Below, piece by piece: positions 33,185 through 39,445 of a stretch of 64,000 nucleotides of DNA (the first letter of the stretch is position 1; each line of letters starts with the position of its first letter). Below the pieces are notes generated by a model that was not told the origin of the DNA, did not search any database, and worked only from the letters and a program-made list of their open reading frames with translations. Position numbers and translations under genes: made by a program. The DNA comes from Herpetosiphon geysericola (GTDB lineage: Bacteria > Chloroflexota > Chloroflexia > Chloroflexales > Herpetosiphonaceae): positions 372,001 to 436,000 of the forward strand of contig NZ_LGKP01000022.1 in assembly GCF_001306135.1 (NCBI RefSeq). The letters are read 5' to 3'.

Positions 33185-33279
33185 TAGTAACGGTAAGGCG
33201 CTATAGCCATGGCTTGGATTAGGCTATGGCATTCGCGCTTCCTAATCCAAGTTTGGTTCTTTCTTGTTGGAGGTTGGCT

Positions 33280-34326
33280 ATGAAACAACGTCGCTGGGGC
33301 ATATTGATGCTCTGGATGCTCAGTTTGATGCTCTTTGCTGCGCCTAGTTTTGCCCAAAGCGGCAAAGTGGTGATCGATAACAACGGGGTTGATATTGACG
33401 AAAGTCGGATCAATACCGCTGCCCGCCAATTGACTGATAAAGGCGCATTGGTGGTGGTCGTGCTGACCGACAGCACTGGCGGCCAAAGTGAAACCGCCTA
33501 TTTGGATAGCCGCCTCAAAGATCTGGGCATTGGCAATAGCTCAAAGGCTGGCGATCGTCCAAACAACGTTTTGATTTACTATGTCTCGTTTGATCCACGC
33601 TATAGCTCAATTTTGCCAGGCAGTGCCTACAATCAAGCGCTGACCACTGGCAATCAATCGGACGCGATTCGCAATAATCAGCTGAATGCAGGGCTTAAGG
33701 CCAACGATCCTACGCGAGGATTGGTCGATGCGCTGACCGCAACCTCGCGGGTGATCAGCGATCCTGCTGGCGCAGCTTCGAGCAGCTCGCAAAGCAGCAG
33801 TAGTAGCAGTGGGATTGGCTCAAGCCTGGTTTGGATTATTGTGATCATTGCGCTGGTGGCGATTGGCTTCTTTGTGGTGCCGGGCTTGCTCAAGCGCCGT
33901 TCAAGCCAAGCTGCCGAAGCAGGAGCACAAGTCAATACGCGGGCACGCTTTGATCAAGCCAAGAAAAACGCTGGGATTGCGATTGCAGATCTTGCCCAAG
34001 CAATGCGTGATGCAGGCGAAAAACAACGCTTTGATAAAATTAGCTATCCAACCACCCAAGCCAATGAATTAGAAAAGCGGCATCGGGCTGCTGAAAGTAG
34101 TTTTACCCAAATCAAAGTTCAATTTGATGATATTAATGAACGGATTGATAACGTCGCAAATCCTTCAGTGACCGATTTGGAAGGCGCTGCTGGAGGCTAC
34201 GATGGCATTACCAACCAAGTTCGTCAATTGACCAGCGAATTGCAAGCAATGGATGGACTTCGCAAAGAGCTGGATACGATCAATGCCCAAGCGCCAGCAG
34301 AGGTTGACCGCGCAAAAAAATGGTAA
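33280..34326 (+). CDS. TPM-domain membrane protein (may continue by -1 frameshift into the next ORF)
   Basis: A 348-residue protein: signal peptide ending SFAQS, a TPM domain (about 28-150, with GALVVVVLTDS and NNVLIYY), a Ser-rich stretch, one membrane helix (about 184-204), then a coiled-coil cytoplasmic region. GGAGG precedes ATG 33280. The frame stops at TAA 34324, directly after gcA AAA AAA TGG, a perfect -1 slippery heptamer (34314-34320). The next ORF continues the coiled coil without a break in the -1 frame, so a 975-residue fusion product is possible. Confidence 0.85.
   Translation: MKQRRWGILMLWMLSLMLFAAPSFAQSGKVVIDNNGVDIDESRINTAARQLTDKGALVVVVLTDSTGGQSETAYLDSRLKDLGIGNSSKAGDRPNNVLIYYVSFDPRYSSILPGSAYNQALTTGNQSDAIRNNQLNAGLKANDPTRGLVDALTATSRVISDPAGAASSSSQSSSSSSGIGSSLVWIIVIIALVAIGFFVVPGLLKRRSSQAAEAGAQVNTRARFDQAKKNAGIAIADLAQAMRDAGEKQRFDKISYPTTQANELEKRHRAAESSFTQIKVQFDDINERIDNVANPSVTDLEGAAGGYDGITNQVRQLTSELQAMDGLRKELDTINAQAPAEVDRAKKW
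34314..34320 (+). promoter_or_regulatory. A AAA AAA slippery heptamer at an ORF junction
   Basis: Seven A residues in the X XXY YYZ register of the TPM gene, followed by TGG TAA. A -1 slip moves translation onto ATG GTA ACC of the next ORF. I did not identify a clear downstream stimulatory stem or an upstream internal Shine-Dalgarno. Confidence 0.5.
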
Positions 34327-36209
34327 CCGACGCTGCCGATTTGTTGCAACGGATTGGTGGAAAACAGGCACAAGCCCAAGTTGCCACGATTCAGCAACAA
34401 GTAATGCAGGCCGCTCAATCATTAGCATCAAAACATGCTAACGATGCTCGGCAATCTGCGAGTGTAGCGTCGGAACAATTGATCAAACTGCAACCATTGC
34501 TTGATCGGCTCAAAAGCGCCGAGGCCCAACTTAAGGCCGCCGAGGAATATTTGCCAAGTATCAATGGCAAGCGGGCTGCTGGCGTAAAACAGCTGGTCGC
34601 CGAAGGCACGCAAGTGTTGCAAAATGCCGCTGTGCAAATTACCGAAACTGATGCCAGCGATTTAGTTGATGAAGCTGAGCGGATTGCCCAACGTGCCTAT
34701 AAACTTGGGCCTGATTTCGCCAGCACCCAACAATCGTTCAATCAACGGCTCGAAGCAGTTAATGCTCGCGGCCTTGAATTGAATGGTCGTTTGGAAGCAA
34801 GCCGCAACGAGTTTGCTGAAGTCAATCAATATGCGCCCGAATCGTGGAGCGATATTCGTGGCAATGGCAGCGAAGCAGCTTCAGCAGTTGCGCAAGCGCA
34901 CCAACTTTGGCAAACAGCGCAAGCCAAAATCGCCCCCGACCAAGATGATTGGGCTGGTGGCTTGGAAGAGTTGGAAACTGCCGAAGAGCGTTTGGTTTAT
35001 GCCGATACCTTGTTAAACGCAATTAGCAAGCGTTTGGCCGATTTGCGCGAAGCCCAAAAGAGCGCCACGAATCAAATCGAAGATGCCAAGCGCGATATTA
35101 AACTTGGCTGGGGCTATGTGCGAAACAACGATGCTGATGTGGGCAAAGCGCCAGAAAAAGCCTTATCCCAAGCTGAATCGTTGTTGCAAAATGTCGAAAG
35201 CCAATTGACGCGCGAAAAGCCCAATTGGATTAGCGTTTTGCAACAGGTAACCCAAGCTCGCCAATATGCCGACCAAGCCTTGGCTGGTGCGCGTTCTGAA
35301 GTTGAAACCATGAACGCCAAGCGTGCCCAAGCCAAAGATTTGGCCAAAGCTGCCCAAGCAGAGCTTGGCAAATTGCAAAACTTTGCCCAGTTGCACCCTG
35401 TCGATGCCAAACCTGAGCATCGCAAAAAAATCGATGCCATTGGGCGCACGCTCTCTGAAGCCGATACCGCGTTGCTTTCAGCCGATCGCAGCGAGGAAGA
35501 AGCACGGGCTGGTGCTTTAGATTCGGCAATTGGTGGCTATAACACGGTTATCAGCCAAGCAGCGCCATTGTATAGCGCGATGTACGAAAGCTTTCAATCG
35601 TTGGAAGTGTTGCGGCGCGAAGCTTCGGAAGCGGTGCAAGTGGCCCAACAATCGCTCAACAACGCAAACCAATGGTATACCCAATATGGCCATGTCTTGC
35701 CTGCTAATTCCAATGGGCGGAGTTTGCTGAGCAAAGCCCAACAAACGCTGCGCCAGTACAATCCGAATGCTGATGCAGAGGAATTGAAAAAGATTGCGGC
35801 CAGCGCCCGCGAAGCCAATGGCTATGCGCATGAAGCGGCCCAAATTATTCAAACTGCGTCGCAAAGTTATCAACAAAGCCATCAGCCACAGTATGGCGGC
35901 CAGTATCAAAGCGGCCACTATTCTGGGCGGCGCGATAATGATGTTGGCGATTTGCTGACTGGGATGTTTATTGGCTCGATGATGAACAGCGGTCGTGATC
36001 ATCACCATGGTGGTGGTTGGGGCAGCGGTGGCGGCGGCTGGGGCGGTGGTAGCTCCGGCGGCGGCAGCATCTTTGATAATAGCTCTAGCGGCTCCGGCGA
36101 TTCCGGCGGCGGTTGGGGCGGCATGTTCAGCGGCGGCTCTGGCGATTCCGGCGGCGATTGGGGCGGCGGTGGCGATAGTAGCTCCGGCGACTCCGGTGGT
36201 AGTTGGTAA
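34320..36209 (+). CDS. Long coiled-coil protein with Gly/Ser-rich tail, downstream partner of the TPM gene
   Basis: A 629-residue protein, nearly all helical coiled coil (about 1-520, Ala/Gln/Glu-rich heptads), then a His/Gly patch (HHHGGGWGSG) and a Gly/Ser/Trp tail to the end. It starts on an ATG overlapping the TPM stop (ATGGTAA) but lacks a good ribosome binding site; AGAGG is about 18 bases away. It is therefore either translationally coupled or made as a frameshift fusion. TPM proteins with similar Gly-rich tails occur elsewhere (YgcG-like). No enzymatic motif is seen. Confidence 0.75.
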   Translation: MVTDAADLLQRIGGKQAQAQVATIQQQVMQAAQSLASKHANDARQSASVASEQLIKLQPLLDRLKSAEAQLKAAEEYLPSINGKRAAGVKQLVAEGTQVLQNAAVQITETDASDLVDEAERIAQRAYKLGPDFASTQQSFNQRLEAVNARGLELNGRLEASRNEFAEVNQYAPESWSDIRGNGSEAASAVAQAHQLWQTAQAKIAPDQDDWAGGLEELETAEERLVYADTLLNAISKRLADLREAQKSATNQIEDAKRDIKLGWGYVRNNDADVGKAPEKALSQAESLLQNVESQLTREKPNWISVLQQVTQARQYADQALAGARSEVETMNAKRAQAKDLAKAAQAELGKLQNFAQLHPVDAKPEHRKKIDAIGRTLSEADTALLSADRSEEEARAGALDSAIGGYNTVISQAAPLYSAMYESFQSLEVLRREASEAVQVAQQSLNNANQWYTQYGHVLPANSNGRSLLSKAQQTLRQYNPNADAEELKKIAASAREANGYAHEAAQIIQTASQSYQQSHQPQYGGQYQSGHYSGRRDNDVGDLLTGMFIGSMMNSGRDHHHGGGWGSGGGGWGGGSSGGGSIFDNSSSGSGDSGGGWGGMFSGGSGDSGGDWGGGGDSSSGDSGGSW

Positions 36210-36261: not shown

Positions 36262-36594
36262 TTAAACCATGATTGATAGCAACCAAATGGTTCCAACAAC
36301 GAGTTCGATGGTTGGTAATCCAAGCATTATCCAACGCATCAATGGTGATGTTTGTTTAATCAATATAAAGCCAATAACCAATAATGCGAGCGAAAATATC
36401 ACACTCATTATTAGGCCTAAAAAGATCATGCTGATACATATACCTTCACGATCAAAATCACAAGTGCCAACTTTAAGTGAAAAAAAGCCAATCCCAAATA
36501 AGCTCGTATTTAATATATTCAAACTCGCTACTATCATAATGCCAAGCTTCGGTTTTTTCGGGTTTGTTGGCACATGATAATCGATTTCTGGCAT
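36262..36594 (-). CDS. Small membrane protein, family B copy 1
   Basis: A 110-residue protein with three or four membrane segments. It begins MPEIDYHVP and shares KKPKLGIMIVASLNILNT, a Cys pair around the second helix, LL-IGFILIKQTSPLMRWI and a terminal helix with the next gene. ATG 36594 follows AGGATTTGT; the in-frame TTG at 36615 precedes the ribosome site. Function unknown. Last gene of the seven-gene minus-strand cluster. Confidence 0.75.
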   Translation of the reverse strand: MPEIDYHVPTNPKKPKLGIMIVASLNILNTSLFGIGFFSLKVGTCDFDREGICISMIFLGLIMSVIFSLALLVIGFILIKQTSPLMRWIMLGLPTIELVVGTIWLLSIMV

Positions 36595-36684
36595 ACAAAT
36601 CCTGTTCAAGTTCAATACCCTTCATTTGAGCACAGAAACGGACTGATGTAAGGGGAGATGTAGGCTATGCTGCTAAAAAATAAG

Positions 36685-37014
36685 TTATGACCACATAAAC
36701 CAAAGAATGATGAAGCTCAAAACAGTTAGGCATGGCAGACCAAGCGTAATCCAACGCATCAATGTTGATGTTTGCTTAATTAATATAAAGCCAATCAACA
36801 ATAATACTATTGAAAATATGCCACTTATGACTAGTGCTAGTGCTAGCATGCCGCGACAAACGGCTTCACTATCAACGCCACATGCTCCACCGATAATCGA
36901 AAAATATACAAGGCAAAAGAAGCCTGTATTTAATAGATTCAAGCTTGCTACTAAAATTACGCCTAAGCGGGATTGTTTAGGGATTTCTGGAACATGATAT
37001 TTGGGTTGGGGCAT
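36685..37014 (-). CDS. Small membrane protein, family B copy 2
   Basis: A 109-residue close paralogue of the 36262 product, with the MP-x3-YHVPE start, ILVASLNLLNTGFF, the paired Cys around GGACGVDSEAVC and LIGFILIKQTSTLMRWITLGLP. ATG 37014 has the same AGGATTTGT leader. A recent tandem duplication of unknown function. Confidence 0.75.
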   Translation of the reverse strand: MPQPKYHVPEIPKQSRLGVILVASLNLLNTGFFCLVYFSIIGGACGVDSEAVCRGMLALALVISGIFSIVLLLIGFILIKQTSTLMRWITLGLPCLTVLSFIILWFMWS

Positions 37015-37048
37015 ACAAATCCTGTTCAATTACAAAAATCAAACCAAT

Positions 37049-37363
37049 TTAGCCAAAGAATGGTGCAAAATATACCCCAAGCATTGGAATTAATGGTAAC
37101 CCAAGCGTCATCCAGCGTAATGTTTTTGGCGTTTTGTTGAAACGATAAATTCCAAGCAACAAGATTACAATTGAACTAATCAGGCTGGGGAGGAATAAGC
37201 CGATCAAACTCATAAAACCGCAGATACTATTATTGCAGGTTAGCAAATTAATCAGTGCGTAGCCAAATAACCCAACGCTAGCAACATTTAAAAAGCATAA
37301 AATTTTTATTCCAAAGGTCGTTTTTGCTTGATTATGCGGCACATAATACTCAGGCTCTTGCAT
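37049..37363 (-). CDS. Small membrane protein, family B copy 3
   Basis: A 104-residue, more diverged member: MQEPEYYVPHNQAK start, FLNVASVGLFGYALINLLTC, a Cys in NNSICG, and TPKTLRWMTLGLPLIPML. Three or four helices. AGAGGA precedes the ATG. Same orientation and spacing as its neighbours. Function unknown. Confidence 0.75.
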   Translation of the reverse strand: MQEPEYYVPHNQAKTTFGIKILCFLNVASVGLFGYALINLLTCNNSICGFMSLIGLFLPSLISSIVILLLGIYRFNKTPKTLRWMTLGLPLIPMLGVYFAPFFG

Positions 37364-37398: not shown

Positions 37399-37878
37399 TT
37401 ACAAATATTCGCTGGTGGTTTCGTTGAGTAAATTTGGCATCACCAAGCGCACGAGCACGGCGCTAATGCCAATCGCAATTGGGTGCAAAATCAATGGCCA
37501 CAAAGCAGTATGACTGGGATCTGCACGAAGCATCAGCCAGCGGACGCCAAGCAGCAACCCAATGATGACGGCTGGTAACAACCATAGCAACCACTTTTCG
37601 GCTCGTTGTTGAGGGTCGAGCCAGCGCCGCCAGCTATAAATGCCCAGGGTTAAGATTACGCTCTCAGCCATTCCCAAGCCCAAGCCAAAAACTGCCCCCA
37701 AGCCCATTGCCAAAGCTGCCGCTGCCAAAAATGCTGGATGGCTAATGCCAACTAAACTAATGCACAGGCCATAGGCTGCGCCTGCAAGGCAACCAATTGC
37801 GAGACCAAAGCCTAAACTGAATTTGCTAATCGTCCAGAGATTGGGCTTGGGATACGGAGCTGTGGTTGAATGAAGCAT
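37399..37878 (-). CDS. Glycine-zipper-like membrane protein, family A copy 1
   Basis: A 159-residue membrane protein: a polar N-terminus, two small-residue-rich helices (GLAIGCLAGAAYGL and AMGLGAVFGLGLGMAE), a basic YSWRRWLDP loop and two C-terminal helices ending at LVMPNLL. This order is shared with the three upstream genes. Two ATG codons occur together; the second (37878) has AAGGAG at the better distance, and the corrected upstream gene stops just before it. Function unknown. Confidence 0.75.
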   Translation of the reverse strand: MLHSTTAPYPKPNLWTISKFSLGFGLAIGCLAGAAYGLCISLVGISHPAFLAAAALAMGLGAVFGLGLGMAESVILTLGIYSWRRWLDPQQRAEKWLLWLLPAVIIGLLLGVRWLMLRADPSHTALWPLILHPIAIGISAVLVRLVMPNLLNETTSEYL

Positions 37879-37891
37879 CATCTCTCCTTGA

Positions 37892-38385
37892 TTAAAGTTC
37901 ATCTAAGCGACTTAAAACGGCTGGGAAGGCTAATCCCATAAACAAAACTAGCAGCCAATTTGGGTAAACAATATAGATATGCAGGAAACTTAAATTACTG
38001 CCAATGCCCATAAATGCAGCAAAATAGGCTGTGATCGAGTAGTTGGCTGCAAAAAAGGATACCAACTGAGGCTATGCAGGCTACTCAAGGTGATTGGCGT
38101 TATGCGCCATAGCCCGAAATTGCTGATAAACCCTGAAGCAAACTTTTTGCGCCAGTTGTGAATGATGATTGCAACAATCGGGCTGCCAATCAAGCCCATC
38201 GCTGCCCCATAGAATACCCCAATAACCTCCGTCACTAAGGCGACCGCAAAATCAGCGAGCAGGCCAAGGGTAAAACCATAAATGCCGCCTACAACGACAG
38301 CCAAACCAATGCCATATTTAAAACATTCGTCGATTAACTCGCCTAAACTGGGTTGCGGGTTTGCCTCGCGCTGCTGTTGATACAT
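37892..38385 (-). pseudogene. Family A copy 2, frameshifted in a T6 homopolymer
   Basis: The open frame 37990-38385 gives 131 residues starting like the other family members (GIGLAVVVGGIYGFTLGLLADFA) but ending in a non-membrane sequence. In the +1-corrected frame, after the T6 run (A6 on the plus strand, 38051-38056), a normal C-terminal half reads FFAANYSITAYFAAF ... VLSRLDEL and stops at 37892. That gives about 164 residues, like copies of 159, 166 and 156. One extra T would restore it. It may be a true lesion, a phase-variable tract or a sequencing error. Confidence 0.75.
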
Positions 38386-38456
38386 CGGGCATACTCCCGT
38401 AGTAAAGCAGATTCTTCGCTCATAAGCAAGTATGCCAAATGGATGTTACAAGCTTG

Positions 38457-38957
38457 TTACAAACGCTTAATCTCGGATGATTGCGCAGGTTGGGAATCCA
38501 GAAGCTTAGGCAAGATAAGCCGAATCGTTATTGCAATTATTAAACTTGGCCCAATCGCATAGCCGAGGGTCTCAACTTCCAACAACCCTGCCAATGGATG
38601 CTGCTGATAATGATCATCATTCAGCAATACCTTGTACCAAAGGCCAAAATAGCTCAAGCTAATGCTACTGGGAGCCAGCCAATAAAGATTTTGTTCGCCT
38701 AGATTGCGTGGACTGAGCCATCTGCGCCAACAGTATATTTCCATTGCTAACAGCAATCCGCCAATTGAGCCAACAAACATCCCTATAATGAGTCCAAAAA
38801 TTGCCCCAAAAATCATTCCAAGGAGCAGATCGACCATGAGTCCAACCACTATTCCATACAAGCCGCCAAGAATCAGGCCTAAGCCCGCACCATATTCGAG
38901 ACATTGACCTGCGATAGGTATAAACCTCATTTGGAGGTTAGCCGGAACCTGATTCAT
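38457..38957 (-). CDS. Glycine-zipper-like membrane protein, family A copy 3
   Basis: A 166-residue protein with GAGLGLILGGLYGIVVGLMVD, then LIIGMFVGSIGGLLLAMEIYCWRRWLSP and two C-terminal helices ending RLILPKLL. It matches copy 1 in motif order. GAGGAG lies 6 bases before the ATG. Function unknown. Confidence 0.78.
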   Translation of the reverse strand: MNQVPANLQMRFIPIAGQCLEYGAGLGLILGGLYGIVVGLMVDLLLGMIFGAIFGLIIGMFVGSIGGLLLAMEIYCWRRWLSPRNLGEQNLYWLAPSSISLSYFGLWYKVLLNDDHYQQHPLAGLLEVETLGYAIGPSLIIAITIRLILPKLLDSQPAQSSEIKRL

Positions 38958-38974
38958 AAACGCTCCTCGCTCAA

Positions 38975-39445
38975 TTAATCCTGAATTTTCCCTAAAATGA
39001 GTGGTAGGCCAAGGAAGGTGCTGGCGCTAATGATCAAACTTGGCCAGACGACCAACCTGCTAAGGCGTGTATTCTGGGTACTAGTTAACAGCAGATCGTA
39101 GAGATAGTGATCAAGCCCGAGCTGCTGGCCAAGCAAGCGATAACTGATCAACAGATAGCCAATCACAATCATCAGTGGGGCCACCCACAGCAACGAGTAG
39201 CGGTGCTGGTTGAATGATGGAAACATGTGCTGCCAAGCATAAATCATACTGGCTAATACCATGCTCCCAACAACCCCAACGATGCCACCAACTAAACTAC
39301 CAACGATAAATCCACGCGCTACACCGAGATACGAGCCGTAGATTGCGCCGATGCTTACACCGAGGCCTGGCCCGCGCTGAATACATGCCTCTAAAATCGT
39401 TGCGAACGTTGATTGAATGTTGGGATTATTGGGAACATGATACAT
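38975..39445 (-). CDS. Glycine-zipper-like membrane protein, family A copy 4 (first gene of the cluster)
   Basis: A 156-residue protein: MYHVPNNPNIQ start (the YHVP motif also opens family B proteins), GPGLGVSIGAIYGSYLGVARG, then IVGVVGSMVLASMIYAW and C-terminal helices. AAGGAG precedes the ATG. The shared YHVP/YYVP N-terminal tag links families A and B. Function unknown. Confidence 0.78.
   Translation of the reverse strand: MYHVPNNPNIQSTFATILEACIQRGPGLGVSIGAIYGSYLGVARGFIVGSLVGGIVGVVGSMVLASMIYAWQHMFPSFNQHRYSLLWVAPLMIVIGYLLISYRLLGQQLGLDHYLYDLLLTSTQNTRLSRLVVWPSLIISASTFLGLPLILGKIQD

Follow-up and report, generated by a model that had tools for sequence, protein, structure and literature searches.

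A conserved A_AAA_AAA slip site points to dnaX-type programmed -1 frameshifting in a TPM-domain membrane protein gene of Herpetosiphon and its relatives

A TPM-domain gene of Herpetosiphon geysericola is probably decoded by dnaX-type programmed -1 ribosomal frameshifting. The two products, deduced from the DNA, would be a TPM membrane protein of 348 aa and a version of 976 aa that carries a long helical rod. The gene lies within a 64,000-nucleotide stretch of contig NZ_LGKP01000022.1 (positions 372,001 to 436,000), here called the window. Frameshifting of this kind is known, and a TPM membrane-protein gene would now join its cases. Many bacterial frameshift candidates have been predicted and few followed through; the GeneTack survey lists 146 clusters with A-rich heptamers (PMC3711429). 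The split genes described here, which are easily annotated as two ORFs or as a pseudogene, would hide a protein of ~976 aa and suggest that an uncharacterised membrane TPM rod is a two-form assembly. The 44 exact copies of the site, with natural flips of the default frame, offer a ready experiment on the evolution of slip efficiency and isoform ratio.

All parts of the gene lie on the forward strand. The short product is encoded by ORF1 (33280..34326), whose ribosome-binding site GGAGG (33269..33273) was read directly 6 nt before the ATG at 33280. The 348-aa translation comprises a signal-like N-terminus, a TPM domain (PF04536, residues 40-156, 33397..33747; E 1.3e-08, 35.3 bits, cut-off 22.1), a hydrophobic, putatively membrane-spanning segment recognised by eye (LVWIIVIIALVAIGFFVVPGLL, 33826..33891), a short helical part and a KKW-stop end. 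Besides TPM in ORF1, no Pfam family reached the cut-off in either ORF. In the frame of ORF1 the junction reads GTT GAC CGC GCA AAA AAA TGG TAA. The heptamer A_AAA_AAA (34314..34320) sits in the X_XXY_YYZ register for a -1 shift relative to the ATG at 33280, just as the earlier note had described, and the 0-frame stop TAA (34324..34326) is the second codon past it; both were read directly and compared with homologues. The -1 frame is already open ahead of the A-run and stays so until the TAA at 36207-36209, so that reading continues uninterrupted after the slip for 629 codons (34320..36209). By translation, and by the helical model of a fused homologue, this extension is predicted to form a helical rod with a Gly/Ser/Trp-rich C-terminus. 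A tandem -1 slip on A_AAA_AAA would join 347 and 629 residues to 976, counted from the ATG at 33280, which replaces the 975 given previously. The predicted peptide of the long product that spans the A-run is ...AEVDRAKKMVTDAADLLQR. Runs of A7 or T7 are scarce across the window (12 seen, against a mean of 35 in dinucleotide shuffles). Because of this scarcity, and because it recurs exactly, at the same codon pair, in 28 split and 16 fused homologues, the heptamer stands above chance.

The extension was found in 46 of the 60 genomes searched, including that of H. geysericola, and a profile of it matched 65 of 82 genomes of the order, leaving 17 without a match. Outside the order, matches were weaker (best E 6.5e-49) and mostly single open frames of ~700-1190 aa, with a few shorter. 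Among the 65 matched genomes, G056, G060, G062, G067 and G081 were without a usable junction, and loci L112, L115, L116, L122, L125 and L132 were dropped for lack of a match to the head. In total, 61 distinct homologous junctions with both halves in hand were counted. Exactly seven As in register were found in 28 split genes from two families, among them those of Herpetosiphon aurantiacus DSM 785, H. giganteus, Ca. Oscillochloris fontis, Ca. Chloroploca mongolica and Ca. Viridilinea halotolerans. In 16 further cases (Chloroflexus spp., Roseiflexus sp., Ca. Viridilinea mediisalina and others) the gene is a single ORF with A7 at the same codons. One fused gene carries A10 (L012, genome G055), one junction is A6 and shifted (L096, genome G065, a 3.8x draft) and one is A8 (L093, genome G069, a 2.1x draft with an extra frame break). 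The remaining 14, all fused and more distant, have no A7 at the aligned place. Homologues in one ORF and in two thus both occur, a point that had been left for checking. In three distant fused genes of group g6 whose head was matched (L042, L044, L128) and in L125, an A7 read as CAA AAA AAT/AAC lies ~8 codons before the aligned junction, and in L042 and L128 it is directly followed by a TAG in the -1 frame; these runs were considered too uncertain to be counted as sites.

All 28 split genes have a -1 frame open for 571-629 codons, with tail identities down to ~32%, and all 28 place their 0-frame stop at the second codon past AAA AAA (TAA in 12, TGA in 10, TAG in 6). A -1 slip in one of the 16 fused A7 genes would instead meet a stop after 3 codons (8 genes, those of group f3 and V. 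mediisalina) or after 6 (the 8 genes of the Chloroflexus type). The 28 split and 16 fused A7 junctions among 61 strongly support the programmed slip that the earlier note had offered as one option. Another of its options, a sequencing error, can be discarded, since the same A7 and the same frame change recur in 28 genomes, including the complete genome of H. aurantiacus DSM 785. Homopolymers do invite such artefacts, and G065 (A6, 3.8x coverage) and G069 (A8, 2.1x, extra frame break) show them. Intact -1 frames persist, however, in 28 genomes of two families despite tail identities down to ~32%, and the five other Herpetosiphon homologues, 90-99% identical to that of the window, are open as well, so that error or recent decay of a once-fused gene is exceedingly improbable.

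Codon usage at the site was examined in 44 aligned rows picked for A7; stated fairly, A7 is kept by 44 of 45 close homologues, or by 44 of 47 with both thin drafts included. Both lysine codons are AAA in 44/44 of these rows, compared with 16/44, 16/44, 12/29 and 19/31 at four other conserved lysine columns. The codon before them always ends in A (GCA in 40, CTA in 2, GTA and ACA in 1 each), although the encoded residue varies between Ala, Val, Leu and Thr. Among 878 well-filled columns, an invariant third base was found only in the three heptamer columns and in three columns ending in G, the latter probably being invariant Trp codons. Adding L012 breaks the rule at the first codon, which is GCC in this A10 gene. 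In nine genes with 69-73% G+C, AAA makes up 4-25% of lysine codons and GCA 1-5% of alanine codons, and the site is still GCA AAA AAA. Judged from these alignments, the heptamer is under selection and conserved beyond the needs of protein coding. A naive codon probability (log10 -26.7 for 17 fused genes) was rejected, as it treats related genomes as independent and includes the A10 gene without GCA.

Upstream of the heptamer, at a distance of 10 nt, the window gene carries the SD-like element AGAGG (34299..34303), a putative frameshift stimulator as judged by its pairing rank and by the motif in homologues. Using a motif list after PMC4066793 with a slightly different spacing window, an SD-like motif was found at this place in 28/28 split and 16/17 close fused genes (44/45), the A10 gene L012 being the only one without it, as compared with an average of 22% of positions elsewhere in the same genes. 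In 44/45 genes the pairing energy was among the top 5% of positions within the gene (median rank 0.005; 0.008 in the window gene). When the upstream peptide was resampled with synonymous codons, p fell below 0.05 in only 2/45 and was otherwise 0.06-0.81, with a mean pairing of -9.6 kcal/mol observed and -6.9 kcal/mol after resampling. Because resampling often gives an equally strong SD, part of the signal is due to the encoded peptide. The standard 16S 3' end GGATCACCTCCT was present in 6 of the 7 genomes searched; it was not found in G002, nor in G000 with a longer pattern. The shared anatomy consists of the SD-like element, a spacer of ~10-13 nt, A_AAA_AAA, a stop at the second codon in 28 genomes, and a long -1 frame. 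SD spacings reported to stimulate -1 shifts are 9-14 nt (PMC5009743).

In the mechanism proposed, the anti-SD of an elongating ribosome would pair with AGAGG or GGAGG and hold the ribosome with two tRNA-Lys on AAA AAA; the ribosome would slip one base back and elongation would resume. In Herpetosiphon and many genera of group f4, unshifted ribosomes would stop at once and release the TPM protein of ~348 aa, shifted ones yielding the ~976-aa form. In the Chloroflexus- and Roseiflexus-type genes and a few others the roles would be reversed, the long form being made without a shift and the short one by slippage. Both arrangements would provide a putative membrane scaffold with TPM anchors that do and do not carry a long cytoplasmic rod.

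The main rival is programmed transcriptional slippage, by which the polymerase would add an A in some transcripts, so that an A8 mRNA encodes the long form. It fits a site that is a homopolymer, and it fits L012, which recalls Thermus dnaX (PMC5009743) by its A10, the lack of an SD-like element, and stops that lie 3 and 1 codons away when the two other frames are read. The two lysine tRNAs of the H. geysericola genome, separate tRNA-Lys(UUU) and tRNA-Lys(CUU) detected with RF00005 and ARAGORN, also speak for it: Thermus likewise has two lysine tRNAs, yet uses transcriptional slippage (PMC5009743). The run is, however, exactly 7 As in 28/28 split and 16/17 close fused genes, whereas transcriptional slippage is described for runs of 9 As or Ts (PMC5009743) or A runs longer than 7 (PMC3711429). 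Moreover, a heptamer in X_XXY_YYZ register and an SD 9-14 nt before it are characteristic of ribosomal shifting, and the A10 gene alone is without the SD. Slippage of the polymerase is therefore unlikely. The earlier note had left frameshifting and transcript slippage side by side; a programmed slip is upheld, and through the upstream SD-like element ribosomal frameshifting is favoured rather than proved. The presence of tRNA-Lys(CUU) beside tRNA-Lys(UUU) would explain why the site is A_AAA_AAA and not A_AAA_AAG.

Two separate genes with stop-start coupling would be another way to express the extension, the second protein starting at the ATG that overlaps the A-run (34320; AAAAAAATGGTAA). In the six Herpetosiphon loci and in L011, an in-frame ATG is indeed present 6 nt from where the heptamer starts, and in L008 one is present at +9. 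In the window, the nearest SD-like element to this ATG is again AGAGG, at 16 nt, a spacing that by sequence is too far for normal initiation at ORF2 and agrees with the lack of a good ribosome site remarked on before. Furthermore, scanning codons 1-13 of the -1 frame at 21 split loci revealed no ATG, GTG or TTG in 12 of them, which argues against separate ORFs served by a real internal ribosome site, and fused homologues are single ORFs. Coupled initiation is thus very improbable.

Regions downstream of the heptamer were folded singly for 44 genes (28 split, 16 fused) and as four group consensuses for 42 of them, without L002 and L018. The mean single-sequence z was -1.34 for split and -0.39 for fused genes. 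The consensus of group f1 (Herpetosiphonaceae, 7 sequences) gave a plausible hairpin with an outer stem (z -2.8), and a different structure was obtained in f4. In the window, the f1 fold weakly suggests a possible RNA structure at 34321..34386, with a hairpin at 34333-34360 and an outer stem of 34321-34327 with 34380-34386. The f4 split consensus showed no structure within 45 nt; within 75 nt it showed a short imperfect stem of 8 pairs starting 34 nt downstream (z -2.35 by column shuffles), in which 13 of 160 cells are unpaired. For the fused genes of f3 the consensus z was -2.1 within 45 nt. The group folds differ, and no downstream structure common to f1, f4 split and f3 fused was found.

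The distribution of split and fused genes was followed on a quick maximum-likelihood tree of 48 rows (27/28 split, 16/17 fused, 5 distant), in which branches are long, the outgroup is imperfect and gain cannot be told from loss. The label changes 5 times on this tree, 4 of the changes being forced by well-supported branches; in 500 shuffles of the labels the mean was 15.9 changes and none was as low as 5. Fused genes occur within the otherwise split f4 as a Chloroflexus-type clade, as V. mediisalina and as L012. In the closest split/fused pair, V. halotolerans and V. mediisalina, A7 is identical and the frame is switched by an indel of 1 nt within the eight or nine bases after it. A8, a simple route to fusion, was seen solely in the 2.1x draft (L093). 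Since A7 outlasts these reversals of the frame, it is apparently the presence of both forms that is selected for, probably at a fixed ratio. The same reversal of which product needs the shift is reported for dnaX at efficiencies near 50% (PMC5009743). In L012, ribosomal slippage seems to have given way to the transcriptional kind. As a tentative broader reading, which is possible but short of probable, a fixed isoform ratio of the TPM rod would have been under selection across Chloroflexales for longer than the frame itself, with about five flips, each needing ~50% slippage, and with the A10 lineage without SD having swapped ribosomal for transcriptional slippage.

The site resembles Escherichia coli-type dnaX (tau/gamma) in its A-rich heptamer, the SD-like element 9-14 nt upstream and a long product alongside a C-terminally truncated one (PMC5009743). 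It differs in that the gene encodes a TPM membrane protein, the heptamer is A_AAA_AAA and not A_AAA_AAG, and no common 3' stem was found. With the slippage of Thermus thermophilus dnaX it shares the homopolymer, two lysine tRNAs and, in some fused genes, nearby stops in the other frames (PMC5009743), but the run is 7 and not 9, and the SD-like element is present save in the A10 gene. Chromosomal genes that use A_AAA_AAA to make two products also form the fs-chlD or magnesium chelatase clusters of GeneTack, which include a Herpetosiphon member; in the assay of that study, 10% was obtained with an A7 cassette (PMC3711429). Cases from Chloroflexi are given in PMC9227772. The proteins of these clusters are unrelated, and a default frame that flips while the heptamer stays unchanged is not described in the portions of these two papers that bear on the clusters. 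A published report of a frameshift in a TPM gene was not found in a literature search outside supplements and subscription literature, and the term 'TPM' does not occur in the main text of PMC3711429.

As a control, dnaX of the same group was scanned (29 matches in 31 genomes; 28 ORFs, L194-L221, leaving out a fragment of 221 aa). No A/T heptamer in register was present in 25/28 ORFs, one of which has an out-of-register A7; the remaining three have one or two in-register heptamers, with -1 stops 14-55 codons away. By these scans, dnaX of these relatives appears to be without -1 frameshifting at an A/T heptamer, and gamma may be absent or made otherwise. Since dnaX of the same group lacks such a site, the dnaX trick appears to be applied to another gene here.

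A structure model was obtained for the fused f3 ORF L014 (pLDDT 84, pTM 0.44). It comprises TPM, a long helix holding the membrane segment, a helical rod that reaches residue 833 and, last, a disordered Gly-rich part. Since the slip codons, residues 305-306, fall close to where helix 256-318 ends, the short form would retain TPM together with the membrane segment and the greater part of the first helical unit. Residues 1-131 of the model match BA41 (5anp_B, Z 15.0) and Psb32 (8c7i, Z 14.0), and the TPM part also matches a subunit of mycobacterial respiratory supercomplexes. The rod (residues 448-638) was matched to EzrA (4uy3) with Z 14.8 and a Foldseek E of 2.6, where a best Z near 14 is typical of mostly helical models without a clear match. 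The modelled likeness to EzrA, a spectrin-like membrane scaffold, is thus suggestive only, and no sequence match to EzrA was found. A PDB sequence search with ORF1 found no relative, and with a profile the only match was a designed protein (E 0.005), located close to the C-terminus.

Some neighbours were tested at 16 loci, 30 ORFs altogether. In 6/16 loci (L080, L089, L100, L103, L108, L111) the TPM gene has a TerB-domain gene downstream, and the PspA family was absent from the 30 ORFs. In two of the six, L080 and L100, the TPM and TerB genes are separated by an AMP-binding (acyl-CoA synthetase-like) gene. In other bacteria, TPM-coiled-coil proteins partner PspA (PMC11237479). For the YdjH-type proteins of Firmicutes, which combine TPM with a long coiled coil and are such partners, no frameshift is described in the relevant part of that paper; here the neighbour is TerB in 6/16 loci. 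By analogy, the TerB neighbour and the likeness to PspA partners suggest a role in envelope stress or membrane-complex assembly. Downstream of the gene in the window, the reverse strand carries three tandem small hydrophobic ORFs of 117, 114 and 104 aa (36262-37363), alike by eye and probably the result of a local gene duplication. They are followed on the same strand by four tandem small Gly-rich hydrophobic ORFs of 131-167 aa (37399-39445), which by eye resemble one family.
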